Assembly: GCF_036711975.1 (NCBI RefSeq) | Contig: NC_091971.1 | Coordinates: 8,439,501 to 8,503,500, forward strand | DNA from: Onthophagus taurus | Lineage: Eukaryota; Arthropoda; Insecta; Coleoptera; Scarabaeidae | Direction: 5' to 3' | DNA: 64,000 bases | Shown here: positions 13,074 to 58,084 of the stretch, piece after piece | Numbering within the stretch: position 1 is the stretch's first letter | Layout of the letters: each line of letters begins with the position of its first letter | The notes under the pieces: model-generated | Database searches by the model: none | What the model saw: only the letters and a program-made list of their open reading frames with translations | What the model was told of the DNA's origin: nothing | Translations under genes and position numbers: made by a program

Positions 13074-13081
13074 CTTTTATA
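13074..13081 (-). promoter_or_regulatory. TATA box of takeout-like gene 4
   Basis: TATAAAAG on the minus strand in a GC-richer context, 60 bases upstream of the ATG at 13014, with a plausible initiator (CCAGTGAC) between. Spacing fits a short 5' leader. Confidence 0.6.
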
Positions 13082-13717
13082 CCCCCAGCAAAAGGGAAAT
13101 TTTATCGATGGTGGGGAGTTTGAAATGAAGATTTACTCGGAAGAAATATAGTAAAAGTTTTTTCATACACGCCATTTTCTCAATTAAAACGTATAATTGT
13201 ATTGCAATTAACTACATGTTAAACTTCAACATGTTATTTTTAAATTCTATAATTACCAATAAAAAGAGACGAGAAAATAGCATGAAATCTAATAATAAAT
13301 CGTAAAATTGATGGCTATTTAACCATTGTTATCATTATCCTTTCGTCACATCCTTCCTCTTTGCAATCTAAAGTAAGTACAATGGAAGGAAAGTACTGGT
13401 TGTAATAGGTAATAAGATGGTAAATTTCGCTTTCACTATACCAAGAAGTTAGAAATTTAATATCGATTTGAAATTAAATTATTTATTTGTACACACGTTT
13501 AATATTTTAACTATATTATATCCAATTATGTGGTAAATAGAACACTTAAAACATTTTCTAATTCATTAAATTCTAAAAGGCGGATGATTCAGCACAAGGT
13601 AAACCACAAGTTTTCAAACAAACATTTCAATTAATTTGATTTTTATACAAATCTCTCTTCAGTAGTTTTTCTCTACTGTGCTCGTAACTATATTAAGAAT
13701 TAAATTTATAAACAATA
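13082..13717. other. Intergenic between takeout-like genes 4 and 5
   Basis: AT-rich; nothing coding or repetitive recognised. Confidence 0.4.
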
Positions 13718-34600: not shown

Positions 34601-37600
34601 AAGAAACAAAAGCAACGATCCATTTGTGGTTTATCTTTACGCAAAAGTGACAATGACATATTCAATTAATTTGACAAATATGTTAAAGCTATAAGAAACG
34701 GTTCAAAAAGGTTGTTAACAAAATCTTGAAAAAATATCTAATAAATGCTATGAATTTTGATTATCCCATTCTAATAAGTAAATAAAATAATCGTTTAACC
34801 AAAAACTGCATAACTAATAATGTTGTTTTTTATTTTTCAGTTTCGTGTTTTCTTTTGGTGGTTTCATTCTTCGTTTGTACGATGGCAGGAAACGATTTAT
34901 TAACAGCGACCGAAGTGTCTAACGGAAATACAAAATTCACATCGAATTTATATCAAATATTAGCAAAAGAACCCGGAAATGTGTTTTTCTCACCAATTAG
35001 TGCTCATGCAGTGCTCTCTATGATCTACCAAGGAGCTTCTGGGGCGACAGCTGAAGCTTTAAGAAAAAATCTGTATCTTCCAGAAGTAAAAGCGACAGCC
35101 ACTGGTTATAAAAACATTATGACCGAGTTGAATTCAGTTGAAAACGTGACTTTGCACATTGCCAATAAAGTCTACATAGCAAATAAGTATCAATTGAATG
35201 ATAATTTTAAACTTACCGCTACCAAGGATTACTTGGCTGAAGCACAACCATTGGATTTCAAACAAAGTGTAGTAGCCGCTAAAGAAATTAATACTTGGGT
35301 TGAGAATAAAACCAACAATAAGATTAAAGATTTAATCCAACCAGACGATTTGGATGAATTAACCCGTTTGGTTTTGGTCAATGCTATTTATTTCAAGGGC
35401 AACTGGTTGCATCAATTCCCAGTTGAACACACCAGAAAAGAAAAGTTTTATTTGAACGATAAAGACTCCGTCCTTTGCGATATGATGCATTTAACCGATC
35501 ATTTCGAATACGCCGAAGATACCGAATTAGATGCTAAGATTTTGAGAATGCGCTACACCAACAAAGATGTCAGTATGGTTATTGTTCTTCCTAATTCGAA
35601 GACTGGTATTTTCGCTTTAGAACAAAAATTGGCCAACAAAGATTTAACAACGTTGACGAGCCAATTAGTTTCTCGCGAAGTAATCGTTTCATTGCCTAAA
35701 TTTAAAATTGAAACCACCATTGATCTTAAAGATTCCCTTGAAAAGGTAAATATAATTTTTTTTATTAAATTATTTATTATTAATTTTATTTTCTTTTATT
35801 TTCAGTTGGGTATGGGTGTTATATTTTCTGATGCGGCTGAATTCCCCAATTTAATTAAAGGGGATGAACCGCTTAAAGTTTCAAAAGCTATTCAAAAAGC
35901 TTTTATCGAAGTAAACGAACAAGGAGCTGAAGCAGCTGCAGCAACTGGTAAGTCAAATAAAGAAAATAAAAAAAAATAGTTTTTTTTTGTTGTATTTACG
36001 GGGGCTTTTGCATGGTCTTTTGTACTTTGCGCTTTTTTGTGCTTTTTTACTTCCTCTTATTATCGCCTCCCAAGCTTTTATTTCATTTATATCTATTTAT
36101 TATATTTTAATTTAAATAATTTTGTTAATGATGCACCGCTTATTTTAATTTTTTTAAATCAAAAATCAACACGTGCACTATTTTCAAATGAAATCACTTC
36201 CACCTGGGTTGTTTATAAAATAATGTAGAAAGAGAAAAACCTCCGTTGGACGTATCCCTTTCTTTTAGGGAGCATCGTGAGGTTGAAGCGGTCCATGAAT
36301 TACGAAAAAGACACGTTTAAAGTCGATAGATCATTCGCGATTTACATCATTGGATCGGAAGGATTAATTTTATTTACGGGAAAAGTAACGGAAGTTCCGA
36401 GCTATGAAAGTGCTCTTCACGAGGAACTTTAACTTCCAATTCTTCAAATATTTTTTTAAATCTATTTTTCTTTGTTTATTTAAAGTTTTAATCGTTTAAT
36501 ACTATTTTTTAGAAAATTTATCAATATTTTTGTGACCCTTTCTTTGTAAAATGTGTTTTTTTTAATTGTGATCAAAAAAGGTAAGTAATACCAAATTAGT
36601 TAGTTATTTAAAGTATTATGAAATCTGTTATTTCATTTATACTTCATCGCGTTTTTTAATGACTCAAACATTATAAAATCTACATAAAATCACTTATATT
36701 TGCAATTAATGGAATGACTGAATTTGCTTTGCAATGGGGAAACTGTTAATGCTTGCGAAAATTAATTCTAGTAATTATTTTTGCCGACAGTTGCTGTCTT
36801 TAAGCTACGTACAAGACCTCAATTTGTTGTTCCAAAGCCGGAATTCATTGCGGATCATCCGTTTCTGTTTATTACGCAATTTCATGGAGATAATGATATA
36901 ACCATTAATTTATTTTTTGGATCATATTTACCCAACAAAGAATTTGACTGAATCTTTTCCTTATAATTAACGAAGAATTAATTAATTGTAGTTATCACTT
37001 TTTTTATTAACGATTTTACTTCAAATAGAAATTTATTTTAATAATGATAAATTAGTTTATTAATAATAAATTCAAAGGTCATACTTTATTAAATTTTTGA
37101 TAAATCAATCAGTTTCCGTTTGCTTTTTGTTTGTCTTTGGATGCTAAAAATCCTATAAGTTAGCTTACATGTTCAAAAAAGAATTCAACTAAAAGAAACG
37201 GCATCATGTTTTTTGAATACTTTGAAATTATTGCATTCCTCTTGGGTTTCTTTGTCGATTAGGTATAATTATTTTAATGAAACAACGGTTTTATTTCATG
37301 GAAAAATCGACGAACCAGTTCAGGCTTGAAAACTTGTTCTTGTTAATGTTGTCTAGTTTAATTGATTTACATAATTTTAACTTATTAGTTAATTTTTGTT
37401 TGTGCTTAACACACGACAAAATAAATATTGCTTAAAATGTGTTAGTTTTAATCATAAAACTTAAAAGGTCGTTGAAAGAGATTATTTATTGCGTCATTCA
37501 CACTTTTAGTATTTACATTAAAACTCGTAATTATAATAAAAAATAAGTAGTTGTTTTATGGAAAACCTTAAAAAATTGATTAGATTATATTTTAATAAAA

Positions 37601-40600
37601 TTAAAATTGCAAGGATTTAGATTAGAATCTCTATCAACCATCTAAAAACAGTTATTTTTTGGTAACATCACATTGTCTTTAACATTTTTTAATTGATCTT
37701 TGCATCGTACACCAAATTTCATATTGCCATAACGTACAACTTACACCTATATAACACCTTTGGTTCTTCAAAGAATCTTCAAGGATTGCAAATAAATAAA
37801 AGAAGTTTGGAAATATTGTTTGTCTATCAGCAGCTTCAATAGGAACTTATTTTTCTTCGTAATGTAAATGATACATGTATGGACATGATTTTATTAACAT
37901 TCATATTTCTAACCATTTCTGAATTTTATTTAAGTTTCTTTGAAACTTCTTATGGCTAAGTTTGGATTAATAAGATATGGAAGGATCAACGACAAAGAAG
38001 AGCTAACATCAGACCAAACACGCAAACTTGAGGAAAACCCCAGTATGGAGAATACAATCTTGCCCATTATTTTGTTCAACCATAATGTGTTGCGGAACTT
38101 GTTAGGTGCTGGGGAAGAAATCGGATAGTTGATTTCTTTCATTATAACCTAACCATTTTAATTATATGTATGTTGTCCAACAAAACCAATTAGAATAGCA
38201 TGTCTAGAAAGTTAATTATTTCTTTTTCTTCATCAGTAGATAACTCTGAAAGGAAAGGTTTGAATACGATTAGGTGTTTTGACAAATTTATGGCTTTCCA
38301 TTTATTATTTATTTTTCTACTATTTTTTCTATTTTTGATTGGAGAACTGTGTTGCTGTGGTCTCTCCAATCTTTTCGTTTGCTCCGTGACTTTGTTTGGC
38401 ATAAGATTTTTTAAATCTATATACCTTGAATTTGTTCTATTTGTACTAAGTCTTTCAGTTCCTTAGTAGCTTTATTTAACTTTTCGTTATTTTCAGACGC
38501 CCTGATTTGCTACCATCTTTTTCAAAATTATTACTTTTCATATTTTCATAACTGCGTCTATTGCATAAATGGAACCTACAGCATTTTTTTACTGACAGTT
38601 GACTTGATTCATTGTGTTATTTTAAGATATTTTTTATTCTTCTATGACTTTTCCTATCAAGGACAAATAGTGTTCTACATGTGACTGATTTAAATTTCTG
38701 TGTGTAAAGTGACAAAGTTCAGTGTGTGTCGTAATTTCGGTTGGTAATGAATATTTCGGTAGTGAATCTCTCTAAAATATACAGCGCAATATGTACATCT
38801 CGACATTCGAGTGATGTAACTTTTACGTATGGAGTTGCCAATGGTAATTTGTATTTTCGTCATGGTCTGGATGAAACGTTCCAAAGAAGTCATCGTATTC
38901 GTGCAACAGACATCTTCCAGTAAGGTGGAGGAATGGGCAGACCAAATAAAGTGATAACGAGAGGATTGGTATATTATCAGCAACAATTGGCGCAGATTCT
39001 TTTAAGAGTTTTAGACGTCTATTATAAGTCATAATAACTTGATCGTTTCAAGTATCAATGCATATTTTAGTATGGTTGCTCGTAATGTTTTAAGATTGGT
39101 TGAAGTGAATCTCACTAATGGTCTACTTGATTCTCATACTTGAACTATCTGGACTTTTTTCTAAGAAGCCATTTGAAGACATTATTGCATTCCAGACGAA
39201 AAAGGAGAAGATTTGAGAAATCGAATACTTAATGGAAGTTATGCAATCAAAAGTACTGGTATTTCGGAACGGGATTAAAAACATTTACCCACCCTATGTG
39301 ATGGATGAGTACCATTCAGCAGTTTTTCTAAAACACGAATATTTATTGTTTGCTAATCGCTTCTTAATTTTCAAAATTTACTATAATAGAAAATATCATC
39401 GTTATTTTTTGTCTCTATTTATACCTGTTCTGCTTTAGCAACTTTACATAATGATTTTTTGAAATATTCATTTAAGTAAATATATGTATAAATAAAGAAA
39501 TGTGAAATTTTGATTTCGTCGTGGATAATTTATTTGAGCAAGTTATTCAAATACGCTTGTCACATTTGCCTTCTTACTTTTTTTAAAGAAGGGAAGTTAG
39601 TTCTATGCTAAATATCCTTTCCTATTATTTATTTACTTGTTTCACGCGCAATATTCGTTGATTTTGATAGCTAAATTATTGAACCAATTAACCTTAAAAT
39701 CTTTGTTTTGTTTGTTTTTTCGTTGTTGTTACTCAAATTATTATATATCTAATGTCGTATAATTAATTTTTTTATTAATTTCACATAATTTACAAACACC
39801 TAAAGCTAAATCTACTATTACACACGCAAACTAGTACACATTTTTCTTTTTATAATACATCATAAAATGTTTTAGCTGTAATCATGATGTGTAGAAGTCT
39901 TCCTATGAGAAAACCTGATCCAATGGTTTTTAATGTTGACCATACTTTTATTATTTATATTGAAAGTGCTAACAACGAAAGGAAAAAATGTTTGTTTTAT
40001 GGAAAAATTGAACAACCTATAGGAAATTGAGAAATTTATTATCACGTTCTTGTTGTTAACTTAAGAATATTTATATTATTTGTATATTGATGTTGAAATT
40101 TCTATATTAATGACAATAAATTAATCAATCTTAATAATTTTTTTTATCTTTGAGGATTCTTGCATTTATGTTATTTGAGTCAAGATTTTCAATAAGAAAA
40201 GTTGCTTAATATTTATATTAAATATAATGCGATTAAGTAGTGCTCGAGCTTTTAAAACTTTCTTATTTATTCACATTTTAATTTTTATTAAAAAAAAAAA
40301 TGTATAGGAAAAACCGTACAATTTTGAATGTGTACAAATGACTGTTTTATCAAATAATCTTTTAGGTGTAGTATTGGAAATGTTTATGACGATGACAATT
40401 TTGGAGGAGTTCCTCGTCGAATATCCGTTTGTCGCTTACATTGAATGTTGTGCCAAAAAAGATAAACCTAATGTTTTGTTTTTGGGGAAAGTTACTAACC
40501 CTAATAATTAAAAAAATATATATACAGGTGTGCTCCATACATAATTCACAAGCTAAACCAAAATGTTTTAGTTATAATTACGAAGAAATGTATTTCTAGA

Positions 40601-43600
40601 AGGAAACGTCGTGAATAATTGATTTTTAACGTTGACCATACCTTCATAATATATATTGATTCTCATAAAGAACATGAGAAATCAATCACAAGAATGTTGT
40701 TTTATGGAAGAGTTCACTTAAAAATTTCTTAATTGATATTTAATGTTTATTGTATTAGATGTTATGCTTCCAATTTTTGTTATGTACGCTACTAATCGAA
40801 TTAAAAAAAATCAATACAATCAGGAGTTGTAATTAGAACAATGCGGAATGTTATAAATATATGATAAAATATGATAATTTTTTAGGTTTAATGGTTATGT
40901 TATGTTCAATGCCAATTTTGGAAAACTTTAACGTTGATCATCCGTATATCACATATATTGAAACACGCACCCAGAAAAATGATTCTAAAGTTTTATTTTG
41001 GGGAAAAATTTCTAATCCTAATAACAATTGAACACCACATCATAAATTATATTAAAGGAAATTAATTGATGTAAAAATTAATAATGTTAATCAAATTGGC
41101 TTCAATAAAAAATTCAGTGTTTAAATTTTAATGTAAAAATTAATAATTACTGTGCACGTCTTAATGCTTTCGAAGTAATTGAAAATGTTTTTATCGTCTG
41201 GCTTCAAAAACCAATCACATTTGTTGTGTAGATTTTAATCAAATATAGTTTTAGTTGTCTGTATGGATAATTGCATAACTAAGGCACCAGATGAAGTTTT
41301 TATTGACCATCCATTTATAATATGTATAGAAAATCGAAAGTCTGTAAACACAAATGGAAGTATTTTATTCTTCGGGGTTATTTCTAACCCAAATGTTTAA
41401 AAATTATAATGCCAAATAAATCTTAGCTTTATATATTTTCTGTTAATAATAATAATTTTTTTAAATTGCCAAAAATATTCTTTTTAACTGTTTTCCTATA
41501 AAATTTCCTCAAGAATGTTTAAAATATGTTATATAACGTCGAGCGATTGTTTTGCTTTTACTTAGTTTTGGTACAACCTACCATGATAGATACTTTTCAT
41601 TCCTTGATTTCTTCACCAAAATCCTCATTAGAACCTCTGCAGTACCTATAATATAGACAGCAAATAAACTAAGTAAGACTCCATTTTAGTCCTTTGCAAT
41701 GTCAAATGCGACCCTCAAATCAACAAAAAGGTTATATAGTATATAATATGCTTTAGGAAATAGATTATGTGTATTCCCGCTTATCGGTCTAGAAAGAAAG
41801 AAGAAAACTTAGAAGCTTGGAGAGGACTTGATTCAGAAATGATGAAGGCTATATGGGGTTGCCTTGATGCAGACACGATGATGGTATGAGTTAAAGCAGA
41901 TATTATGACAGAAGCATAATTGATGGTCTTCATAGATTGACTATGTCTTGGCTTGCTAGAAAGAAGGTGAAAACTTGCTGCAGAAATGATATAGATTTTA
42001 TACAGAGTTGTCTCGATAGAAATTTCAAGGAAGTTTGATTCAAACAATATTGTCTCAATTTTATAGAATCTATCTTTTTTGGAGGCATAATGGAGATGCG
42101 ATGTTGACTTCAAAAACTTGATACAAATTTATTAAGGAATCTTTGATGATTTTATGCAATCTTAAAGGAGCTTTAATGCGCTCATAGATGCAGTGTTGAT
42201 AGAGACCCTATAGAAATATGACGCAGTCTTGATAAAAAGACTCTATAACTAATCTTGATAGAAATAAGGCAAAATTGTCAGAATTGACGAAGAGCTGATT
42301 TAGGCATAATGAACATATAAAGCGGACTTAATTCATGGTTACCGTGTATGAAGATTTTAAGCAACCTTGAAGGCGTCCCGCTGCACTTTTAGTTTCAATA
42401 TTGATGCACATATAGAGATATGACCCAATATTAATATAGTCTTGATAGAAACCTGACTTGGCTTGATAGAGCCAAAGTAAACACTTGACGTGGAGATGAT
42501 GTAGACTTTAGATAGTAGATAGTTGTCTTGATGGAGATTTGATGTAGGCATTATAGTGATGTAACTCGGATTGATGTAAATTCTTTGCGGTTACGGTGGT
42601 CTTTCCAGTTTTTAACCAGTCTCTCCAAACCTTCCTATGCCATTCTGATTCTTCTCTTTATTTCTTGTTCTGAGCCGTCCCTTTTATTATTTTCGTGCCT
42701 AGTTCAATGATCTCATCCTTAACATAGTCTACTCGCCCGGAGTATAATCAACAAGTGGCTCGATTCGATGGAGTTCGAACATTTCTTGTTCACCTTTAGC
42801 CGTTGCCACAATATCATCTGCGTATCGATGATATTATAATCATAATTATCGTAAAACCAATGTTGAGTATTGTTGCAAACGTTTGTTTATCTCATGTCTC
42901 TTTGTAGTTTTATTTATATTGTGCCGTTTTTGGTTCTTGTCACTCAAGAAGATTATGAAAACAATTTGATAATCAGAATAAGAATTAAAATTCCAGCTTC
43001 ATTTTCTGTGTTGTCCTTTGTTATGTTTCTATATTGATTATTAATAATTATATCTAATACTTTTTAGGTTTAGTTATGGCAACATTCGCATGTGTTATGA
43101 AACCACCACCTGCAATGTTTAACGCCGATCATTCTTTCATCAGTTTTATCGAAAGTCGTAACGGCAACAAAAAAGATGTTTTATTTTATGGGAAAATTGC
43201 TGACTTAAAAGAATAAATACTTTAATTTTTGTCAGAATTATTCAAATCTTTTTTGTTATATCATTTAATTAAATCTGGGTAAGTTAAGTTTAACAAAATA
43301 ATATCGAATTAAGGAGCTTCTTAATTGCACGTTTCGCTTAATTGTTTGTTTCATTCAATGTCGTTATAATTTTTTATAGATTTGGGGAAATTTAATTCAA
43401 TATTTGTTGGTTTCTTCTTTTGCTCGTTTAGGTGTCGTTGTCAGGGGTCGTAGTGCACATTTTATGCGAAGAAAACGAGAATTCAGAGCGGACCATTCTT
43501 TCCTAATCGCAATTATCACGCAAAATTCGGTGGTTTTATTCAATGGAAAATTCGATGAACCAATTGATTAACTTAAATGTAAAACTTTAAATTTAAAATT

Positions 43601-49600: not shown

Positions 49601-52600
49601 GTTGTTCTTGCCCAACACAAGAACATCTTTCCCAACTATCATCCCGGATATCTTTCCACACTGTCGTAGTATGTTTATCCACATAACACAATAAAAATAT
49701 GAAGTCAATTTGCAAATTTTGTATATTCTGTCATCATCTGAGACCTACTTATTTTCAATATTGTACTCAACATCTTCTCCATAATCTACCAACATCCTCC
49801 ATCATCTCTCCACATCGTTCCTGTTATTCATCAATAAAATCTCTAGCGTCTCTCCACATTGTATTAACCTCTCGGAATATATTTCTCATCATCTCCATAT
49901 TCTGCTTGATATCTCTAAATATAGTTCCTAACATCTTACAGTCTTTTACAGTTCTTAACATTGTCTACGACATAAAAACTTCTTAACGTTTTTCTGCTCT
50001 TTCTAAATATCTTCGACAACATCTACCAACATTGAGTTATATTATTAATTAATTATACATTAATTAGTGCATACATCGTTTAAAATTGTATAGTTTTCTA
50101 TTCAGATGGACTCAACAGGTGTGAAGATTCCTTTATCATCTGGGAGTTATCGTTAAACATCATTCTTGGCCATTCTCAACATTGTTTATGGCTCCCCTCT
50201 ACGTAGTTTTTGAAACCCTCCAACAGAATCTTGGTTATTACTTTAACCTCTCGAGTTCTTGCCCATCATATATCAATATCGTCTTTGATATTGTGCCTAA
50301 TATCCTCGTATATCGTCCTTAGCCATTCTTAACATTGTGTTTAGTACCAATTAACATTAACTTTGATATTTCTAAGCATCTTCTCTGATATTCCTCACAT
50401 ATTTATTGTGGATACTCATACTTATTACATGATTTGCTTTAGCAGTTTTTATCTGTTTCTTTGTTTATTCAATTGAAACACTTCGCCAAAAATAAATAAT
50501 CAAAAACAGTTAAAAGGTATTGTGGAATGAAACTAGAAAACTTTTTATACTAAATCAACTTTTAGATCTTTTTTCCAACTTCTGCTTATGTAGCTTATTT
50601 TTACGATATAATTTTTTCTAACATTTTTGTTTTTAATTTTAGCACTGAAAATCATTTTCTTGTCATACACTCCACCAAATCGATTTACAGTTAACCAACC
50701 ATTCTTAATAAGGATCGTCTCGAACAAAAATGGAAGAAATCAAATTTTATTTTCCGGAAGAATAATGAAACCATAAGTTCTAAAATACACATAAACTTAT
50801 ACAACAGTAAAAATTTTAAGATAGTTATAAATTTATATAAAAAATTGTTCACACTGTCTCAATTTTGTATTTTCGAATTTACACGTTTGATTTTTCACTC
50901 AACACTCACTTTTTGAACACTTTAGGGGTTTTGTGCTTTTGGATTTGATTAATTTATACACAACTATTAATTAGTATGAATTTAAACATTTTAGGTTTTA
51001 TCACAAAGAGAACAACTTTTAAACTAGAGTTCCTTGTGGAGCATCCTTTTCTATTTTTCATTACACATAAAAAAGAAGATTACAATAACAATAAAATAAA
51101 TATGTTCAACGGAAAGATAATAAATATTTAGATACATAAATAAAGTCAAGTTACAAAATTTTAAATGTGATTTTATTATTAACTTTTAAAATTCTTTTCT
51201 TTCTTTAGATCTTTGCATGATCTAAATTAATTTATTTCAAGCTTGGTTTAGAGACAACTTAATAAATTTATTGTTTACTTGGTAATTTTAATTACAATAT
51301 ACATTTTTAGGTATAATAGCAGTACCGATATCCGCATTTATTCCCGATCAAGATTATTTCGAAGCAGATCATCCATTCTTTTTATCGATATCTATCAAAA
51401 TCAACGATGTTGATAATGTTCTCTTTTCCGGAAATGTTTTAAAACTTTAAATAAGTTCTATAACATTTACATTTGCATCTATAATTTTTTAAGTTGTACT
51501 TTTTCGTATTTCGTTTCATTTTCTTCATACTCAGATTTTGGAGATTTTTTTTATTGTATTTTTTGCATGTGTTTGTTTTCAAATCTTTATTAGATTAAAA
51601 CTTATATTTGAAATATTGTAGGTATCGTTTTGAAAAGAAAAAAAGCGAGTTTATCCTCTTTTAAAGAAGAGTTTTTTGTGGAACATCCTTTTCTATTATT
51701 TATTATTAACAAAATTGAAGATAATAATAACATTCTATTTAATGGAAGAATTCTAAATGTTTAAAATTTTATTAAATACATCCTAAGTTCATGTAATATT
51801 CATCTAATCTAAATAAAATTTATTTAAAAGTATTGCTTGTTTTATTTATTATTATGGCAGCATTTATTAGCTTTTTAAACAAACGTAAAAGCTTATTTAG
51901 CTTATTTTTTTGATTAAAATACAGTAAAACCTCGATATAACGGATTAATACGCGAAAAAGACTCTCTTACACACAAATTCGGACAACTATCCAGATTGCA
52001 TTTACTTTACATGCTTTATATTTATACCAACGACGGTAGAATCTAAGAGGACTGTATTTTCAGACGCACCCGAATCTTTCTAGTTCTAGGTGTAGTATTA
52101 GTTCTAGTTTTAGTTCAATAAAAATATACAACAATCTAACACTCAATAACAACTAAGTCCGAAGTTTCCGAAGTCCGTTCTAACGAGGTCCGTTATATCA
52201 AGGTGTTATTGTATATCATATTTTAATAAATTTATAGAAAAACCTCCTTGTGGAAAAAACAACACTAATCCTATCAAGAAATTATTCCATAAAGAAGAAT
52301 TATTTAACTTTATAGTTGACAAAACATTTATTTATTTGATAAACAAAAACTTGACACGTTTTTGTCGAAAGGGAATTCTTATATTTGGTCGAAATAATTC
52401 TCCATGTTGTTAATTTTTTTATATATTTATACTTTTTGTACATATTATTATTTATTTATTTTATTTTTAATGTATATAATATTTTAAATAAACAAGAAAT
52501 AAATAAATTGTAAATTTATTGTAAAAAAATACATTGCTAACAACCTTCACGCAAAATCACGATTAAACTAACAATTTTAAGTTTCATGGAAAAGGAAATA

Positions 52601-55600
52601 TGAGTAGATAGATAACATTAACAAGAACAAGGTGAAAATAGTGTAATTGTAAACGTTTTTCTTTCAGCTTTCGAAATCGTGCCTTTATCCTTGAAGTATT
52701 ACGAAGACTTCTACGTCGATCATCCATTTTTAATTTATGTAATCAAAGAACGATATTATACAAGAGAATTTATTAATTTATTTAATGGAAGAATTGTATT
52801 CCCATTTTAAACGTAATTGTTTATTAATGGAAGTAATTTTAAGAAAATAAAATGTTAAAATATTAATTAATTACCTTTTGATTCCCTTGTAACAAATTCC
52901 TTTTAAAATCAAAATAATTCTTCCTTTTTTTGTCTCTATCTGTGGAATTTTTAACACAAAAGGGGTAAAAGGTACTTGGTTTTAACAGGGTTTTTCAAAT
53001 TAGTTAGGACAATTTTCTTTGTGCTTTCAGGTATTGAAATATCGAATAGAGTGATGGATATACCAATAGAAGTATTTGAAGTTAACCATCCGTTTGTGTT
53101 CATTATCGAAATGGAATCGATTCTTAAAAAATACATATTTTACGCCGGTGTTATTTATGATTATTTATATTCTTAATGTTTTATTTAATTTGTAAATACG
53201 TAATAACAATTTTTCCTTTATTAATTTATCCGCAATAAAATACTCACTTAGTTTAGATCAATTTCCTTAAAAATTAATTTATTTCTTAATATTATTTTTA
53301 TAACATTTAGAATAAAATAAATTGTAGAGTAAATAATTGCTGGTGTAGGTTTTTTTTACTAAACATATTTAACAATAACCAAGGTAAGCTTTAACGATTA
53401 AATAGAAATTATTTAAAATACAAAAATTTAAAAATTGAATATTTGTTGCAGCTTTCGAAATTGTTAATCGTATCTCGGACAATGATACCAATCCTTGTTA
53501 TATCACCGTCAATCGACCTTTTATTATTGCAATTGAAACTACATCAGCTCAACATAACAAAACAATCCACAAAGAAACTCTCTTTATAGGCAGAATTGAA
53601 ACTGTTCAAGATGAAATAAACAAAAATAAAGTTTAAACACTTTTATTTCATGTAACTAAACATCTCATTATATTTAATCACCTTAATAAATAAATCTTTT
53701 TTTAATCGCAATATAAACTACCAACACTTTCTTCCCAACTTCTTGCTTATACTGCTTATTTTTTCAAATATAATTTTTCTTTTACCTTTATTTTTAATTT
53801 TAGGACTGAAAATTACTTTCTTCTCTTATTCTCAACTAGATGAGTTTACCGTTAACCAACCATTCCTAATAAAGATAATCTCGAACGAAAATGGGAGAAA
53901 TAACATTTTATTTACTGGAAGAATTTTGAAACCTTAAGTTCTTATAAAAATGGCTTATTCGACGATAATTACGACAAAACTATATTAAGTTTGTTTTATC
54001 TTGTTATTTCAAAGTTTAATTAAATATTTAATGTGACTTATTAAACAATTTACTTTAATTCAATCGTTAAAACTACGCAGCTTATTTACTCTGTTATATT
54101 TCATGAAGTGCGTATGGAATACAAAAGTATTCGTGTATGTAATTCATATAAGTTAATTAATCATCGTCCTAATATCCCATATTAAAAGATCTACAGCTTT
54201 ATCTGATAAAGCCAACACCGAGCGCCCCAATATGTTGACCATTTTCAGAATGAACCTCTACGTCAAGCGATTTCAGCTTAATTAGAGAACAGAATTATAA
54301 CTTTACCTAAGCCAAAGCGCCACAATATCAGTATGACCAGTAGTCAAGTTGAGATAATCTTATCGCAAATTCTTTAATTTTTCTAAAATACCTAACATTG
54401 TAAGGTTCCATAAAACTGTAAGCCATGATTAAGAATTTTATGAAAACACCGTTGAATTCCTATAAATTTAAAAATTATATAGAATTTACGAGGAAACTTA
54501 TCGTTTCGCTGCCTTCAATCAACATTGATCCAAAAATTATGGAATTCTTAGAAAGCTTTATGGTATTTTTTCAAGCAGAAGTTCTTGCTATAAATTTCTG
54601 CACCAGTTTTGCGTCTAGAAAAGGGATAGAAAGGTGCATCCGTATTGATGAGAGAGTGTACCAGCAACCTGAGAGAGCTCGCTAGGGGCAATAATGTTAC
54701 TCTATGATGGGTTCCAAGTTGCAAAAACATTGAAAACAAAATAACACTTAAAACAGGCAATCAATTAGTTGGGAGATCGCAAAGATAGCCTTACGCTGGA
54801 AATAACTTCCAGGTCACAATCAAGTGAAGACTATGATAACCCTTCCATATTGGACCAGCTGAGGATCAAACTTGTCGACTTTGCAACGATGAGTCAGAGA
54901 CTGCTGAATGTATACTACGTGAATGTGTCGCCAGAGACTGCCTCAGACACAACATTTTCGGCAGAATTCGCCTGACACCTACCAACATAAAGGAACAAGA
55001 CCTTGAAGCAATACTAAGGTTCATCAAGGGCCTACATTTGCCCTAAACCTTTGGTGGGCTTAAGTTACTATAGATCTTATAGGTCGCGGTGACGAGAGGG
55101 GTCGCTCTCCTCAGCTCGGTAGCAATAATAATATGCGTTATGGCAATATAACAGACTTTGGTTCGAAGATTCTTAAGAAGTTTCTGGAATTCATATGATA
55201 TCTTATCAGAATTTGCTGCAAAGAATTTCTTATTGAATTTAATCATTCACATCAAAGTTCCATGAAGTTGTATATATGAAATTAATAAGAAATTTATGAA
55301 GTTTTTGTTGTTAGCATGAATAGTTGGAAGTTTCATTGAACCTCACTACAATAGGTCCCTACTTCTGGGAGTTGGTTTTGACTACATTTTTGTTTACTTT
55401 CGCAGCATTCTTAAACATTGTAAATCTAACGAAGTTTTCAAGAACTTCACAGTTTTCCATAAAATCCAACAAAAATGCATTAAACATACATCATTCATTA
55501 TTATCATTAAAAATGAGTGAAATTATTTCACTCATTTTTGTAAAAATGGTTATGAGGTTAAAGCACGTTTAACGTGCTAGATGGGATTTCTCGTAAAGTT

Positions 55601-57658
55601 TCGTGAAAATTAAATTTTTGTTTTAATCTTTAACATTTAATAAATGGGTAAGTAAATAAATTTTCTTATTAAATTTGTTAATTGCAAATAATTCGAAGAT
55701 TACGTATTTAAAGTTTCAAAATTTTATTAACACAAAATTGTAAATTTTTTGTATAAAGGTGAAGGATTTTTTTTAAGAAATCTTATGTTTATTTCTATAT
55801 TTTTTTTTTGTTTAACACTCCTTTTTTCTTATTTTTCAGTGATTGAACTCACCGATAGAATTATGATGGAAACACCATATTTCTGCGCAGACCAACCCTT
55901 CGTTTTTTACATAAATTACGAAGAATCACACATCAATTTATTTTACGCAAGAATCACAAACCCATGATACTTTTATTAATCAATAAATATTCATTATAAT
56001 CAATTAATTTTTTATAAATATTTTGTTATAATTATTTGTTAAAATTTATTCTCAATAAATACACATTTTCACTTATTATTTTATTTCTTCTTTGTAAATA
56101 AATCTTTTTTTTTAATTAGAAATAATTAATAAATTTAATAAATTAATTTAATATATTCTTAATATTTTCTGCTGGTGTAGGTTTTGTTACTAGAAATATC
56201 TAACAAATATATATTTTTCTAACTGTAATAACTTAAGGTAAGCAGTTTCAAAATTCTTCAAAAAGATCTTTTCTATTTAAAAATCGTTTTTAAATCAAAA
56301 ATTATTTACAGTTCTCGAAATTGTTGATCGTATCTCGGGATCAGAAGACCCCGAGTTTCCCATATTCTTCGTCAATCGACCTTTCGTAATTGCAATAGAA
56401 ACCACATCAACTCATCACAACAAAACCATCCACAAAGAAACTCTTTTTATAGGCAGAATTCAAAAAGTTGAAGCGGCACATGCGAAGCACCAGCATGTAG
56501 AACTATTTAAATTTTAAGAAGCATTTTTTTATGATGTATCATGCCTTTTTTATAATAACAAACCGTTTTGGCAATCATAATAAACATTTTGATTTCGCAC
56601 TTAAATTGTTTTATTTCACCAAATTAAATTAAAAGCATTTTTTCTCAAAAATTAAGCAGCTTAGCTTCATAGCGTCTTCATAAACATAAATTAATATTTA
56701 AGTTAATTTCAGAGGTAAAACATGAACTTCAATGCGCACCACTCATCCAACCAATCATCACGGAATATCAAGTGAATCGTTGTTTTACATTTTTTATTAG
56801 TAAGGCTAACAACGAGGGTGAATATTTTTTGCTGGAAGGAAAAGTGATTTTTCCAACTGAAATTGTTGATGATAAAAAATCTTGTGAATGTGGTTTAACA
56901 CAAACACCGAAAGAAAAGGAAAATGTACGAGTTCAAATTCAGGTTTAAAATTAATTGTATAAAAAATAATAAATTCAAGTGTATTATTTAGTGCTATATT
57001 TTGTTCATTTAATTATTTTCAATGGTGATAAATATATCATAGTCTGTTATTCGAGAAGGGACTTGGAAAGACGAAGCCATTACGGTGCGTTGCTGAAAAG
57101 TCTCTGAACAAAGAGCAAAGTTAAAATGGTTTCTTAAAAGATTGACCATAAATAACGTTCTTAAAAAACACAAACATGGATTTGAAACATGGAGTTCATC
57201 TTCAATCATCGTGCTTGTCTAATCATTTTGTTCTTTGTAGTATTAACAATACAGTTCTTACATATTTACAGACGTTTTATGTATTTTTTTATAATTTAAT
57301 TAATCTAGGAGCATCACTTTAAATAAAATTGGTAAGTTATTAAATTTTATAGTTGTTAATTAAACATTCTTTTAATGTAAATAATCCCATATTTGTTTAT
57401 TGATGCAATAAAATTGTAAATTTTTGTACAAGGTGTAGGATTAAATTTTTAAATAACATGATTTTAGTAATTTTACTTACTAAAAACTTTTTTCCTTCTT
57501 ATTTTTCAGAGTTTGAAATCACAGACAGAATAATGATTGAGATTCCATCTTTCTGCGCAGATCAACCCTTTATTTTTTATATAATTTACGAAGAAAAATC
57601 ACCTTTATTCAACAAAATTCAAGAACAACTATTCTATGGAAGAATCACAATAATATAA
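31668..57658 (+). CDS. Serpin gene with a constant body and 29 alternative reactive-loop last exons
   Basis: Constant exons: 31668-31674 (only ATGAAGA), 34841-35745 and 35806-35947. Together they encode 351 residues plus the first base of the next codon. The signal peptide is MKISCFLLVVSFFVCTMAG. The body has all core serpin landmarks: NVFFSPISAHAVLSMIYQGA, LVNAIYFKGNWLHQF, the DMMHLTDHFEYAEDTEL strand and VSLPKFKIETTIDLKDSLEK followed by LGMGVIF. The hinge is VNEQGAEAAAAT, small residues as required for an inhibitory serpin that inserts its loop. The constant part ends with the donor G|GTAAGT at 35947; the loop and C-terminal strands come from one of the exons listed below. Each mature product is about 390-430 residues. 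Retaining the intron at 35948 gives a short dead-end reading (KSNKENKKK). Intron 1 is 3.2 kb and contains a LINE fragment. Confidence 0.93.
33004..33560 (-). mobile_element. Dead non-LTR retrotransposon (LINE) reverse-transcriptase fragment
   Basis: Minus-strand frames give, in order: RIPKKWKMEKS (frameshifted), KGDKSVCDNYRGIILLNIE, then ILEEY-stop-CGFRNNKSIIDQIF and VDIHFLIIAFKKA. These are the conserved blocks of LINE reverse transcriptase fingers (W-x-IP-x-x-W, NYRGI-LL, Q-GFR--RST-DQI, D-FKKA). The frame then jumps directly to the C-terminal ENALRVFERKLLRRRYG block, so the catalytic YADD part has been deleted. In-frame stops confirm it is inactive. Confidence 0.75.
34576..34637. repeat. 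Perfect 17-bp inverted repeat in serpin intron 1
   Basis: AAGATAAACCACAAATG at 34576-34592 and its exact reverse complement at 34621-34637. Related words (AACCACATGTTTGTGGTTT near 34426, AAGATAAACCAGATAG near 34387) occur nearby, so the motif is locally iterated. Confidence 0.7.
36269..36432 (+). CDS. Serpin alternative last exon E1 (furin-type loop, HEEL C-terminus)
   Basis: Acceptor TTCTTTTAG|GG; phase 1 joins the constant exon. The loop after the hinge reads G-SIVRLKR-SMNY. RLKR before Ser is the furin/proprotein-convertase recognition motif R-x-K-R. The body strand is FKVDRSFAIYII ... LILFTGKV, followed by an extended tail ending HEEL, a KDEL/HDEL-type ER-retrieval signal. The combination matches the Drosophila Spn42Da (Spn4) isoform that inhibits furin in the secretory pathway. 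Predicted isoform 405 residues before signal removal. Confidence 0.9.
36791..36951 (+). CDS. Serpin alternative last exon E2 (P1 Arg)
   Basis: Acceptor TTTGCCGACAG|TT. Loop V-AVFKLR-TRPQ, predicted P1 Arg with P1' Thr, suggesting a trypsin-like target. Followed by the serpin signature FIADHPFLFI, strand INLFFGSY and a tail ending NKEFD. The LF-x-G-K/R pair is changed to FFGS. Confidence 0.85.
37208..37329 (+). pseudogene. Decayed serpin last exon (psi-a)
   Basis: The last part reads NETTVLFHGKIDEPVQA then stop, closely resembling E8 (SVVLFNGKFDEPID). The upstream loop and D-H-P-F segment are broken by a stop and a deletion, and no usable acceptor precedes them. Confidence 0.75.
37330..39875. 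other. 2.5-kb gap in the serpin exon array
   Basis: No intact last exon found. Open stretches at 37930-38142 and 38690-39032 (minus strand) and 39232-39438 (plus strand) have no recognised family; an inserted, decayed mobile element is possible but not shown. Confidence 0.4.
39876..40030 (+). CDS. Serpin alternative last exon E3 (P1 Arg)
   Basis: Acceptor ATGTTTTAG|CT. Loop A-VIMMCR-SLPM: predicted P1 Arg, P1' Ser. Signature FNVDHTFIIYIES, strand CLFYGKIEQP, end IGN. A polyadenylation signal AATAAA lies downstream at 40115-40120. Closest relative in the array is the broken exon at 40572. Confidence 0.88.
40366..40511 (+). CDS. Serpin alternative last exon E4 (P1 Phe)
   Basis: Acceptor ATCTTTTAG|GT. 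Loop G-VVLEMF-MTMTILEEF, predicted P1 Phe, P1' Met, suggesting a chymotrypsin-like target. The signature is FLVEYPFVAYIE (His replaced by Tyr), strand VLFLGKVTNPNN. The tail TNPNN is shared with E5 (SNPNNN). Confidence 0.86.
40572..40732 (+). pseudogene. Broken serpin last exon (psi-b): stop codon in the loop
   Basis: Acceptor TGTTTTAG|TT is intact and the frame begins V-IITKKCISRRKRRE, but TAA at 40616-40618 ends it before the core strand. After the stop the same frame continues with a good FNVDHTFIIYID signature and MLFYGRV strand to a stop at 40732. It is a recent-looking knock-out of an E3-like exon. If spliced, it would give a serpin lacking its last strands. Confidence 0.85.
40886..41031 (+). 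CDS. Serpin alternative last exon E5 (P1 Cys)
   Basis: Acceptor AATTTTTTAG|GT. Loop G-LMVMLC-SMPILENF: predicted P1 Cys, P1' Ser. Signature FNVDHPYITYIE, strand VLFWGKISNPNNN. Related to E4 by its MPILE and NPNN segments, so the two arose by local exon duplication. Confidence 0.87.
41255..41400 (+). CDS. Serpin alternative last exon E6 (P1 Cys)
   Basis: Acceptor ATAGTTTTAG|TT. Loop V-VCMDNC-ITKAPDE: predicted P1 Cys, P1' Ile. Signature FIDHPFIICIE, strand ILFFGVISNPNV. Lys of the usual GK pair is Val. The loop with two Cys is unusual and could form an internal or intermolecular disulphide. Confidence 0.83.
41401..43067. other. 1.7-kb gap in the array with decayed repeats and a LINE fragment
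   Basis: At about 41790-42570 a degenerate minisatellite-like stretch of recurring words (CTTGATAGAAAT, TTGATGTAGA, GATGATG). At 42560-42840 a LINE fragment. No last exon seen. Confidence 0.45.
42560..42840 (-). mobile_element. LINE reverse-transcriptase fragment with YADD box
   Basis: The minus strand from 42838 reads RYADDIVATAKGEQEMFEL, the catalytic YADD block of a non-LTR reverse transcriptase. In shifted frames it is followed by EIKRRIRMA and GLERLVKNWK, typical of the post-YADD region. Frameshifts and stops show it is dead. Confidence 0.7.
43068..43216 (+). CDS. Serpin alternative last exon E7 (P1 Phe)
   Basis: Acceptor ACTTTTTAG|GT. Loop G-LVMATF-ACVMKPPPA: predicted P1 Phe, P1' Ala. 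Signature FNADHSFISFIES, strand VLFYGKIADLKE. Likely chymotrypsin-type target. Confidence 0.88.
43432..43571 (+). CDS. Serpin alternative last exon E8 (P1 Arg)
   Basis: Acceptor GCTCGTTTAG|GT. Loop G-VVVRGR-SAHFMRRKRE: predicted P1 Arg, P1' Ser, trypsin/clip-protease type. Signature FRADHSFLIAII, strand VVLFNGKFDEPID. A second basic run (RRKR) lies on the P' side. The decayed exon at 37208 is its closest relative. Confidence 0.88.
43759..43904 (+). CDS. Serpin alternative last exon E9 (P1 Arg)
   Basis: Acceptor ATTTTTTAG|AA. Loop E-IVLGVR-CAMPTIFPPE: predicted P1 Arg, P1' Cys. Signature FNVDHPFIIYVE, strand LLFYGKLQVLD. Followed by AATAAA at 43938-43943. P7 is Glu, unlike most of the array. 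Confidence 0.88.
44031..44176 (+). CDS. Serpin alternative last exon E10 (P1 Gly)
   Basis: Acceptor TTATTTTTAG|TA. Loop V-LMVGFG-SAPMRRPLR: predicted P1 Gly, P1' Ser (Phe if the loop is one residue shorter). Signature FTVDHPFIVYI, strand MLFYGKIQNI. Confidence 0.87.
44522..44661 (+). CDS. Serpin alternative last exon E11 (P1 Ser)
   Basis: Acceptor TTTCTTTCTAG|CG. Loop A-LIFLES-AFVSSLT: predicted P1 Ser, P1' Ala, a small-residue loop suited to elastase-like enzymes. Signature FTVEHPFIAFIEDR, strand VLFFGKIVDPST. AATAAA follows near 44810. Confidence 0.87.
44662..47083. other. 2.4-kb gap in the serpin exon array
   Basis: No last exon recognised. Several 60-75-codon plus-strand frames (45773-46000, 45972-46160, 46250-46447, 46769-46969) have no family I recognise; a decayed insertion is possible. 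Confidence 0.4.
47084..47241 (+). CDS. Serpin alternative last exon E12 (P1 Lys)
   Basis: Acceptor TTTTATTTTAG|GA. Loop G-LVVVTK-SAFIRLAPP: predicted P1 Lys, P1' Ser, trypsin-like target. Signature FLVDHPFIACIEQ, strand ILFLGKFIDPSST. AATAAA follows at 47258-47263. Confidence 0.9.
47512..47702 (+). CDS. Serpin alternative last exon E13 (P1 Ala, extended C-terminus)
   Basis: Acceptor TTATTTTTAG|CC. Loop A-LFTVLA-SFNISRLPP: predicted P1 Ala, P1' Ser. Signature FNIDHPFMILIQNKQ, strand NLFLGKI. Unlike its close relative E14, which stops after IIKP, the frame runs on for about 22 residues (IIIVVHEGKLINITISSLQT...), so the ancestral stop was lost. Confidence 0.82.
47801..47934 (+). CDS. Serpin alternative last exon E14 (P1 Leu)
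   Basis: Acceptor TATTTTTTAG|CA. Loop A-VIGVAL-TSIYIPRLPP: predicted P1 Leu, P1' Thr. Signature FEVDHPFIIFIQNKQ, strand NLFFGKIIKP. Tandem duplicate of E13 (shared RLPP and IQNKQ segments). Confidence 0.9.
48100..48266 (+). CDS. Serpin alternative last exon E15 (P1 Arg)
   Basis: Acceptor AAATTTTTAG|GT. Loop G-LRIQMR-GISVQEDF: predicted P1 Arg, P1' Gly. Signature FVANHPFLIIVI, strand VVLFHGKVLKP, then a basic 12-residue tail (PSKTKSRKL). Shares LRIQ-R at the same positions with E16. Confidence 0.88.
48411..48515 (+). pseudogene. Possible truncated serpin last-exon start
   Basis: A good acceptor (TATTTTTTAG) is followed in phase by V-ESLLFGVFAFVF, resembling a loop start, but no D-H-P-F signature follows before the acceptor of E16. 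The reading frame simply runs into E16. Either a decayed exon or coincidence. Confidence 0.3.
48516..48760 (+). CDS. Serpin alternative last exon E16 (P1 Arg, 35-residue C-terminal extension)
   Basis: Acceptor CATTTGTAG|GA. Loop G-LRIQFR-TITEKMEF: predicted P1 Arg, P1' Thr. Signature FLVDHQSIAFIES (Pro-Phe replaced by Gln-Ser), strand ILFCGKIG. The frame continues far beyond the usual end (AEYQTSLRTFAISNSNSIY...KNRIKIFTN). The changed signature and lost stop suggest relaxed constraint. Confidence 0.75.
48761..50642. other. 1.9-kb gap in the array with a degenerate repeat
   Basis: From about 49600 to 50420 short words such as CAACATC, TCTCCACAT, CTCCATAAT and TCTTAACATTG recur irregularly, as in a decayed minisatellite. 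No last exon recognised; the 95-codon frame at 49699-49986 falls within it and is not credible as a gene. Confidence 0.45.
50643..50776 (+). CDS. Serpin alternative last exon E17 (P1 Leu)
   Basis: Acceptor TTTAATTTTAG|CA. Loop A-LKIIFL-SYTPPNR: predicted P1 Leu, P1' Ser. Signature FTVNQPFLIRIVSNKNGRN, strand ILFSGRIMKP. Near-duplicate of E25 in both exon and upstream intron. Confidence 0.9.
50995..51131 (+). CDS. Serpin alternative last exon E18 (P1 Thr or Arg)
   Basis: Acceptor ACATTTTAG|GT. Loop G-FITKRT-TFKLEF. Position 6 is Thr; if the loop is one residue short, P1 is the adjacent Arg (KR-T). Signature FLVEHPFLFFI, strand INMFNGKIINI. Related to E20 (FFVEHPFLLFI). Confidence 0.85.
51311..51450 (+). 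CDS. Serpin alternative last exon E19 (P1 Ile)
   Basis: Acceptor ATACATTTTTAG|GT. Loop G-IIAVPI-SAFIPDQD: predicted P1 Ile, P1' Ser, elastase-type. Signature FEADHPFFLSI, strand VLFSGNVLKL (Asn in place of Lys/Arg). Confidence 0.87.
51622..51764 (+). CDS. Serpin alternative last exon E20 (basic KRKK loop)
   Basis: Acceptor AATATTGTAG|GT. Loop G-IVLKRK-KASLSSF: predicted P1 Lys inside the basic run KRKK, a second candidate for a proprotein-convertase-type target. Signature FFVEHPFLLFII, strand ILFNGRILNV. No ER-retrieval tail, so it would be secreted. Confidence 0.88.
52070..52156. repeat. Dispersed repeat copy 2
   Basis: Second copy of the repeat at 31126-31215: CTTTCTAGTTCTAG, AGTTCTAG, AAAAATATA, CAATCTAACACT and AATAACAACTAA in the same order. 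The flanking GTAAAACCTCGATATAACGG and GTCCGTTATATCA suggest a larger element. Confidence 0.6.
52238..52413 (+). CDS. Serpin alternative last exon E21 (divergent, P1 Lys)
   Basis: Acceptor AATTTATAG|AA. Loop E-KPPCGK-NNTNPIKK: predicted P1 Lys. Signature FIVDKTFIYLI (His-Pro replaced by Lys-Thr), strand ILIFGRNN, end SPCC. Open and in phase but the most diverged member, so it may be decaying; alternatively a specialised Cys-containing loop. Confidence 0.6.
52668..52810 (+). CDS. Serpin alternative last exon E22 (P1 Leu)
   Basis: Acceptor TTTTCTTTCAG|CT. Loop A-FEIVPL-SLKYYED: predicted P1 Leu, P1' Ser. Signature FYVDHPFLIYVIKE, strand NLFNGRIVFPF. Confidence 0.88.
53031..53176 (+). CDS. Serpin alternative last exon E23 (P1 Arg)
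   Basis: Acceptor GTGCTTTCAG|GT. Loop G-IEISNR-VMDIPIEV: predicted P1 Arg, P1' Val. Signature FEVNHPFVFIIEME, strand YIFYAGVIYDYLYS. The usual G-K/R is A-G. Confidence 0.86.
53452..53636 (+). CDS. Serpin alternative last exon E24 (P1 Arg)
   Basis: Acceptor ATTTGTTGCAG|CT. Loop A-FEIVNR-ISDNDTNP: predicted P1 Arg, P1' Ile. Signature ITVNRPFIIAIETTS, a long insert (QHNKTIHKE), strand LFIGRIETV and a charged tail. Duplicate of E27. Confidence 0.88.
53804..53937 (+). CDS. Serpin alternative last exon E25 (P1 Phe)
   Basis: Acceptor TTTAATTTTAG|GA. Loop G-LKITFF-SYSQLDE: predicted P1 Phe, P1' Ser. Signature FTVNQPFLIKIISNENGRN, strand ILFTGRILKP. Same exon as E17 except at the loop, where Leu has become Phe at P1. 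Confidence 0.9.
54420..54980 (+). mobile_element. Possible LINE RNase H fragment
   Basis: The plus-strand frame at 54425-54685 contains MVFFQAEVLAINFCTSFA, resembling the FQAEVxAI-xCA block of retrotransposon RNase H domains. A following frame (54769-54975) is open but unassigned. Neither end nor catalytic set is visible. Confidence 0.45.
55509..55539. repeat. Perfect 14-bp hairpin
   Basis: AAAAATGAGTGAAA and its exact reverse complement around a 3-base loop (TTA), between array exons E25 and E26. Confidence 0.75.
55840..55967 (+). CDS. Serpin alternative last exon E26 (P1 Arg)
   Basis: Acceptor TTATTTTTCAG|TG. Loop V-IELTDR-IMMETPYF: predicted P1 Arg, P1' Ile. Signature FCADQPFVFYINYEES, strand NLFYARITNP (Ala for Gly). 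AATAAA at 55982-55987. Duplicate of E29. Confidence 0.88.
56312..56517 (+). CDS. Serpin alternative last exon E27 (P1 Arg)
   Basis: Acceptor TTATTTACAG|TT. Loop V-LEIVDR-ISGSEDPE: predicted P1 Arg, P1' Ile. Signature FFVNRPFVIAIETTS, insert HHNKTIHKE, strand LFIGRIQKV and a His-rich tail (AAHAKHQHVELFKF). Duplicate of E24. Confidence 0.88.
56713..56948 (+). CDS. Serpin alternative last exon E28 (P1 Gln, Cys-containing tail)
   Basis: Acceptor GTTAATTTCAG|AG. Loop E-VKHELQ-CAPLIQP: predicted P1 Gln, P1' Cys, rare for serpins. Signature YQVNRCFTFFISK (Pro replaced by Cys), strand FLLEGKVIFP, then a 28-residue tail with SCECGLTQTP. Open throughout. Confidence 0.78.
57510..57658 (+). CDS. Serpin alternative last exon E29 (P1 Arg), end of array
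   Basis: Acceptor TTATTTTTCAG|AG. Loop E-FEITDR-IMIEIPSF: predicted P1 Arg, P1' Ile. Signature FCADQPFIFYIIYEE, a longer hairpin (KSPLFNKIQEQ), strand LFYGRITII. Duplicate of E26. The next gene downstream is convergent, so this is probably the last exon. Confidence 0.88.
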
Positions 57659-58084
57659 ATCACTTATTCACATTTATTTCGTATTTATATCATTGATCAT
57701 TAAAAATAATGAAATAAATAAAACAAAATTTCAATGTCAATAAACATTATAAATGCAACTATATTTCAATTGAAAATCACTGTATAAAACGCGTCATTTT
57801 TTCAATAAAATTAGATATTGTCCAACATAATTATTTTTCTAAAAGCAACATACAATAATTAAGAAGTAAAATGCGTTTTCTTTATCCTTTAATTTTGTTT
57901 AACAATTAATTAAGTTTTGAAGACATAAAAAGTAAGTGTGAAAATTAAAAAAGAAAACTATCCACAATGGTTCATTAAATTCTATCACATTTACACCGTT
58001 ATTACACGTATTCTTTATAATTATTATAAATTCCCTTTTTTTATTAATTTTAATTTTATTTTTAATTATTTTTTTCGCGAATCG
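57659..58084. other. Convergent 3' region between the serpin and glutamate-cysteine ligase genes
   Basis: 426 bases with AAATAAA-type polyadenylation signals for the last serpin exon (ATGAAATAAATAAAAC at 57709) and the ligase 3' untranslated sequence on the other strand. Confidence 0.5.

Follow-up and report, generated by a model that had tools for sequence, protein, structure and literature searches.

The stretch analysed here (the window) comprises 64,000 nucleotides (nt) from the genome of the scarabaeid beetle Onthophagus taurus (NCBI RefSeq assembly GCF_036711975.1, contig NC_091971.1, positions 8,439,501 to 8,503,500 of the forward strand), and it harbours a serpin gene in which a single core is followed by 29 units, very probably alternative reactive-loop exons, of which 28 are intact. 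Joining window positions 31668–31674, 34841–35745, 35806–35947, and 36791–36951 reproduces exactly the NCBI protein "serine protease inhibitor 3/4-like isoform X7 [Onthophagus taurus]" (P0001, 30 member sequences), and exchanging the last piece for 40572–40618 yields, again exactly, "isoform X26" (P0002, 1 member); as both are reproduced from the DNA of the window, the NCBI annotation already treats this as a single gene that gives rise to many isoforms. X7 matches the Pfam family Serpin (PF00079) with an E-value of 3.9e-109 over profile positions 2–365 of 370, and its closest solved structure by sequence is that of Drosophila Spn42Da (4p0f). The signal exon is confirmed in X7 and X26, and the internal ATG at 34882 is a possible start, judged from the reading frame, of an intracellular form (MAGNDLL...). 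The inhibitory hinge, with its small residues before P8 (NEQGAEAAAAT), is read directly at the end of the core, and a GTAAGT donor follows ACT–G at 35947, in phase 1 and one base (G) past the hinge, as in serpins of the Spn42Da/serpin-1 type; an earlier sequence-only reading had placed the end of the core exons at this very position, and it was right.

Anchored on the serpin C-terminal signature, the 29 units all lie on the plus strand, between the first acceptor at 36269 and the last stop at 57658 (Table 1). The sequence-only reading had described 29 intact units, each with an AG acceptor, matching phase, a loop, the signature, a terminal strand, and a stop; the total and the span stand, and the full set of features is present in 28 units, but unit 5 is truncated by a stop between loop and signature, its frame reading VIITKKCISRRKRRE and then the stop, ahead of an FNVDHTF remnant, and X26 is exactly this product. 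Run over both strands of the window, a pattern of these features (an AG acceptor in phase 1, the loop and signature, the terminal strand, and the stop), although written after the units had been seen, yields matches that end at the stops of all 28 intact units and at no other position; it has no match in five arrays shuffled in two-base blocks. In a six-frame scan with a profile of 27 seeds, one of them an out-of-frame piece of unit 5, all 29 units score above 30 bits, and the best minus-strand score is 9.3 bits. Leave-one-out profiles give the 28 intact units 12.8 to 55.2 bits, exceeding each unit's own shuffles in 28 of 28 cases, and among the 200 residue shuffles made of each unit none scores above 12.7 bits. 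Genome searches with units 13 and 27, the two intact units used as queries, returned nine and two places, respectively, all within the array. The tree of the 28 units has 3 well-supported inner branches out of 25. The C-terminal tails after the last strand in units 14, 17, and 28 run about 20 to 35 residues beyond the usual length.

Table 1. Exons, units, and unit-like pieces of the serpin gene. A slash in a loop marks P1/P1' by counting, with the split codon taken as P7; bits in the last column are profile scores.
Feature	Positions	Strand	Loop or sequence	Remarks
Exon 1, coding part	31668..31674	+	ATGAAGA	Start of signal peptide MKISCFLLVVSFFVCT; donor GTAAGT; joined to 34841 as the start of X7 and X26
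Core exon A	34841..35745	+		Remainder of signal peptide, internal ATG at 34882, bulk of serpin body; X7/X26 splicing
Core exon B	35806..35947	+	NEQGAEAAAAT	Ends one G past hinge (phase 1); GTAAGT donor, score 11.6
Unit 1	36269..36432	+	GSIVRLKRSM	C-terminus ALHEEL
Unit 2	36791..36951	+	VAVFKLR/T	Used in X7
Relic	37160..37329	+	FHGKIDEP	Terminal strand retained, signature lost; 12.0 bits, 0/2000 shuffles
Relic	37446..37690	+	LIIKLKRS + HTFSIYI	Loop kept, stop past signature region; end estimated; 12.0 bits, 1/2000 shuffles
Remnant, 35 nt	39599..39633	+		Reference copy of its family; unit 21's stretch 80% alike
Unit 3	39876..40030	+	AVIMMCR/S	
Unit 4	40366..40511	+	GVVLEMF/M	Second AG before 40372
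Unit 5	40572..40618	+	VIITKKCISRRKRRE	Truncated, then stop; signature remnant on to 40732; end of X26
Unit 6	40886..41031	+	GLMVMLC/S	
Unit 7	41249..41400	+	VLVVCMD/N	Or VVCMDNC/I via AG before 41255
Unit 8	43068..43216	+	GLVMATF/A	Second AG before 43074
Unit 9	43432..43571	+	GVVVRGR/S	
Unit 10	43759..43904	+	EIVLGVR/C	
Unit 11	44031..44176	+	VLMVGFG/S	
Unit 12	44522..44661	+	ALIFLES/A	
Unit 13	47084..47241	+	GLVVVTK/S	
Unit 14	47512..47702	+	ALFTVLA/S	Tail ~20 residues above usual length
Unit 15	47801..47934	+	AVIGVAL/T	Extra AGs before 47804 and 47810
Unit 16	48100..48266	+	GLRIQMR/G	
Unit 17	48516..48760	+	GLRIQFR/T	Tail ~35 residues above usual length
Unit 18	50643..50776	+	ALKIIFL/S	
Unit 19	50995..51131	+	GFITKRT/T	Shortest loop, 12 residues ahead of signature
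Unit 20	51311..51450	+	GIIAVPI/S	
Unit 21	51622..51764	+	GIVLKRK/K	
Candidate unit	52238..52413	+	...FNFIVDKTFIYLI...ILIFGR...	AG acceptor to stop, open; highly divergent; between units 21 and 22
Unit 22	52668..52810	+	AFEIVPL/S	
Unit 23	53031..53176	+	GIEISNR/V	
Unit 24	53452..53636	+	AFEIVNR/I	
Unit 25	53804..53937	+	GLKITFF/S	
Unit 26	55840..55967	+	VIELTDR/I	
Unit 27	56312..56517	+	VLEIVDR/I	
Unit 28	56713..56948	+	EVKHELQ/C	Tail ~28 residues above usual; weakest leave-one-out score, 12.8 bits vs 4.3 best shuffle
Unit 29	57510..57658	+	EFEITDR/I	

A series of this kind could also represent several separate serpin genes in tandem, of which only the terminal exons had been noticed and the cores missed, a view for which nothing speaks beyond the size of some of the gaps (up to 2.9 kb). 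However, no serpin core is matched inside the array, the Pfam serpin matches falling, among the best candidates scored, on the window's own contig (C6) and on C8, C10, and C11, and a core search of the 290.8-Mb genome, with the best candidates scored, found no second copy of the core, the next serpins being 30–48% identical. X7 and X26, moreover, are built on one and the same core, and the units that they use lie about 3.7 kb from each other, by which separate genes are refuted for units 2 and 5, and for the array as a whole they have next to no likelihood. The earlier statement that no unit has body exons of its own therefore holds, and its general picture, a single serpin core served by many alternative exons for the reactive loop, was right in kind, two of the 29 C-termini being joined to the core in NCBI proteins.

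The reading favoured here, with a probability of about 0.92, is that O. taurus possesses a member of the insect Spn42Da/serpin-1 gene type, with one core and 28 intact alternative loop units (29 with unit 5), which are mostly last exons. The constant part of the message comes from a small exon for the start of the signal peptide and from the two core exons, which end one base past the hinge, and the donor at 35947 would join one of the 28 intact downstream units, or the truncated unit 5 as a 29th. Each intact unit would supply the protein from P7 to the C-terminus, with a reactive loop of its own followed by the closing strands and the stop. Most units probably own their poly(A) (polyadenylation) site, so that the choice of an acceptor would also end the message, and the products would share a constant inhibitor body while differing in their baits. 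Core–unit joins are seen for 2 of the 29 units (units 2 and 5), in NCBI protein models; the protein database displays one representative per 90% cluster, and hence 27 further joins are not visible, although the corresponding units are presumably used as well.

A more sceptical view would be that much of the array is decaying, with many units never used and a real isoform number far smaller than the unit count, and the premature stop in unit 5, the two relics and one remnant within the array, the unusually long tails of at least three units, and the unseen use of 27 units are all in keeping with it. Yet 28 units retain their acceptor, open frame, signature, and terminal strand, the NCBI clusters of X7 and X26 contain 30 members and 1 member, respectively (the nature of the members is not visible), and the ratio of nonsynonymous to synonymous substitution (dN/dS) is well under 1 in the six closest pairs, so that extensive decay appears improbable. 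When these six most similar unit pairs are pooled, the loop has a dN of 0.40 and a dS of 0.91 (ratio ~0.44), and the tail has a dN of 0.19 and a dS of 0.85 (ratio ~0.22). Purifying selection is acting on these exons; dS hardly differs between the two parts, and the loop evolves at about twice the rate of the tail.

The sequences following the stops bear on how the messages end. An AATAAA hexamer lies within 120 nt past the stop in 18 of the 29 units, compared with 9.3 ± 2.4 in dinucleotide shuffles (0 of 400 as high); within 180 nt it is found in 19 units compared with 12.1 in such shuffles (4 of 300 as high), and within 150 nt in 18 units compared with 7 expected from random array windows, while other hexamers composed of the letters of AATAAA show no clear enrichment. 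In the 120-nt scan and in that for donors, unit 5 was measured from 40732. The best donor-like score within 150 nt past the stop, obtained with hand-written splice matrices, has a median of 2.9 compared with 2.4 in shuffled sequence, and the three real donors of the gene score 6.9 to 11.6. Because AATAAA is enriched past the stops and donors are not general there, most units are probably alternative last exons.

The units might instead be internal mutually exclusive cassettes that all splice to one common 3' exon, in the manner of Cydia serpin1, which is described as a ten-exon gene with an alternative ninth exon (PMC10671500), and donor-like sites scoring at least 8 past the stop in 4 of the 29 units, compared with 0.87 expected, would fit such an arrangement. 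The other 25 units, however, have no donor of at least 8 in the 150 nt past the stop, where it is AATAAA that is enriched, which makes the cassette arrangement unlikely. A common 3' exon for all units was rejected on the grounds that donors are not general, and the strong donor-like sites of the four units are still unexplained; given such sites in a few units, a minority may be spliced onward.

Several observations weigh against the favoured reading of one core with mostly terminal loop exons. The joins of 27 of the 29 units are unseen, and NCBI models are not reads; 11 of the 29 units have no AATAAA within 120 nt, and the hexamer also occurs in 16 of the 29 180-nt stretches upstream of the acceptors, which are in part the downstream DNA of the preceding unit. 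To the 4 of 29 units with a site of at least 8 within 150 nt may be added that 5 of 29 reach 6.9, the score of the weakest real donor of the gene. Finally, no pooled dN/dS exceeds 1, so positive selection on the loops is not supported.

The acceptors fall into two blocks along the array: the base before the AG is T (a UAG acceptor) in 20 of the 21 units from 1 to 21 and C (CAG) in seven of the eight units from 22 to 29 (Fisher p = 4e-5, with the boundary chosen after seeing the data). Five of the seven CAG units have a loop that fits E-[IL]-x-[DN]-R/[IV], and the CAG label is clustered on the unit tree (0 of 500 shuffles as low), descent explaining at least part of the acceptor blocks. A tentative proposal, given clearly less than even odds, is that the array works as a 21-kb series of competing terminal exons, in which a two-class UAG/CAG acceptor code is coupled to poly(A) use without any docking RNA. 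The polymerase would then have to pass every proximal poly(A) site before reaching the distal units, and the gene, if this were true, would be a natural test case for the way in which a single donor selects one of about 28 last exons. A rise in acceptor strength along the array was considered and dismissed (Spearman 0.20, p = 0.30). In units 4, 7, 8, 10, 11, 14, 15, and 20, neighbouring in-phase AGs occur 3 to 12 nt apart, and their alternative use, as far as the letters can tell, could trim the loop by one to four residues, shifting P1 and giving extra isoforms.

The internal mutually exclusive exons of Dscam1 are under the control of RNA pairing. The O. taurus gene resembles Dscam1 in having a large alternative-exon array behind one constant part, but differs in that no such pairing was found in the stretches tested. 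That docking-site and selector pairing nevertheless enforces the choice of a unit would accord with the pairing reported for coleopteran Dscam1 (PMC8042237) and with a 23-nt inverted repeat, 96% complementary, between 37333–37355 and 52609–52631, the second arm of which lies directly upstream of unit 22. In 154 duplex tests of 24-nt windows, z ranged from −2.8 to +2.6, with nothing beyond −2.8; these covered two candidate docking regions and 200-nt flanks (the constant intron against 200 nt upstream and downstream of the units, and 57659–58300 against the upstream flanks only, with 15 shuffles each), the long gaps lying outside the scan. Enforcement of unit choice by docking is unsupported by these scans and considered very unlikely.

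By counting, basic residues peak at P1 (14 of 28 units) and serine at P1' (10 of 28), the P1 residues being Arg in 11 units, Lys, Phe, and Leu in three each, and Cys, Asp, Gly, Ser, Ala, Thr, Ile, and Gln in one each; such counting is a rule of thumb, and the P4–P1 sequence R-R-K-R of Spn42Da falls one residue later in the alignment. The basic-P1 units, half of the set by this count, would be directed at trypsin-like or clip-type proteases, and the others present a hydrophobic or small putative P1. Since the codon for P7 always begins with the G contributed by the core, P7 is restricted to Ala, Asp, Glu, Gly, or Val, while the positions from P6 onward are free. Among 120 homologue representatives, 94 have a recognisable hinge, including 34 of the 35 named-isoform rows; one further named row, P0115, lay outside this survey and also fits the rule. 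P7 is one of the five residues in 33 of the 35 named-isoform representatives with a hinge found, the exceptions being P0028 (Ser) and P0050 (Met). It counts against reading this rule as a mark of the gene type that 53 of the 60 other rows also have Ala, Gly, Glu, or Val. The earlier comparison of the gene with antibodies does not survive other than as a figure of speech, because each loop is encoded in the germ line, and there is no sign of a somatic choice per cell.

Unit 1 stands apart from the other units, with R-L-K-R in its loop (GSIVRLKRSM...), in the register of Spn42Da, and HEEL at its end. In Drosophila Spn42Da, P4–P1 is R-R-K-R with Arg at P1 (PMC4006314), and HEEL has been reported to keep proteins in the endoplasmic reticulum (ER) (PMC2556349). 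An [DE]EL end occurs in 10 of the 120 homologue representatives, which come from beetles, mosquitoes, and a fly, and seven of these ten have R-x-[KR]-R within the last 75 residues. When the profile of the ten [DE]EL C-termini is set against a profile of 78 other C-termini, unit 1 shows the largest preference for the former among the 28 units (+6.6 bits). This test omitted P0001, P0002, P0047, P0101, and C-termini outside 35–70 residues, and trimming cut away the loop of P0033. The RLKR loop, the HEEL end, and the profile preference lead to the prediction that unit 1 yields an inhibitor of proprotein convertases that is retained in the ER, and that it is the likely counterpart of the Spn42Da-A type of exon. 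Evidence to the contrary comes from the raw [DE]EL-profile score of unit 1, which at 38.3 is no higher than the 38.5 of unit 16, and from units 29 (+4.5 bits) and 27 (+1.1 bits), which also prefer this profile. When the C-terminal part of the HDEL isoform from Dendroctonus served as the query, it matched only itself (1 of 68 candidates). The earlier suggestion that the gene could supply a broad panel of protease inhibitors would need a corresponding qualification, as at least unit 1 looks, by its motifs, like such an ER-retained inhibitor and not like a haemolymph bait. The furin-inhibitory exon 5 of Drosophila is listed before exons 6–8 (PMC2770083), and the putative ER-type, furin-directed exon likewise stands first in the beetle array.

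The kind of gene is already known in insects, and the present case adds its size, an ER-type first unit, and a likely last-exon layout. Drosophila Spn42Da (Spn4) follows a plan common to both genes, in which the signal peptide has an exon of its own and the two core exons are invariable; it has 4 reactive-loop exons as against 28 intact units in O. taurus, and one of its isoforms combines a furin-type loop with a C-terminal ER signal (PMC4006314). In PpSerpin-1 of the wasp Pteromalus puparum, the first seven exons are shared and exon 8 is alternative (PMC5691223); its 21 C-terminal exons, as against 28 intact units here, were all confirmed as transcripts by reverse-transcription polymerase chain reaction, and it has both secreted and intracellular N-termini (PMC10513286). 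As in the O. taurus gene, splicing occurs one G past the hinge. According to the same source, 192 of the 731 genes in this clade are alternatively spliced at the C-terminal end, with a mean of 7.32 proteins per gene and a splice at +1 in 161 of the 192. Lepidopteran serpin-1 genes, with 14 isoforms in Manduca sexta, 4 in Bombyx mori, and 6 in Cydia pomonella (PMC10671500), share the principle of swapping loops, but use an alternative ninth exon, whereas most of the beetle units are likely last exons after three coding exons.

The 28 units exceed each of the single counts cited here (14, 4, 6, 21, and 4), in agreement with the sequence-only reading, which had ranked the gene among the largest known sets. 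Orthologues from other beetles (Diabrotica, Dendroctonus, Harmonia, Diorhabda, Tribolium, and others) are about 48–57% identical to the query isoform and are named "isoform Xn", and their clusters hold 77, 48, 42, 38, and 23 member sequences, from which exon counts per gene cannot be read; because clusters reach 77 members whose nature is not visible, a record size is not established with respect to other beetles. One-to-one orthology of units with those of other insects did not emerge among the 87 of 120 representatives with a usable C-terminus, the best outside matches (21 to 42 bits over 19 to 54 aligned residues) being too short, and the best match of unit 2 being P0001 of its own gene. 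The titles and abstract openings surveyed contain no description of this Onthophagus gene, the full texts of the eight papers naming both Onthophagus taurus and serpin lying outside that scope. As the serpin core is found only once in the genome, the gene amounts to a compact library, assembled by nature on a single scaffold, of about 28 protease baits, and its layout lends itself to studying the choice that a single donor makes between many last exons.

Besides the 29 units, the array contains a divergent candidate unit (8.0 bits against the unit profile, a score reached by 6 of 2000 residue shuffles), two relics, and a 35-nt remnant (Table 1), which together suggest that the array undergoes continuing gain and loss of units.

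Upstream of the serpin gene and on the same strand lie three similar tandem exons, resembling part of a trypsin-like protease or protease homologue (21719–22213, 24774–25262, and 26988–27440); the Pfam Trypsin profile matches the first with an E-value of 2e-4, the second falls just under the cut-off, and the third has no match. On the minus strand, several juvenile-hormone-binding-protein-like exons occupy about 2500–14200, of which 9864–10325 matches PF06585 (E-value 1e-46) and the rest were judged by eye, and an open frame at 6755–7846, also on the minus strand, resembles a Tc/mariner transposase. The next recognised gene downstream of the array is represented by a glutamate–cysteine ligase exon at 58980–59402 on the minus strand (PF03074, E-value 1.4e-50).

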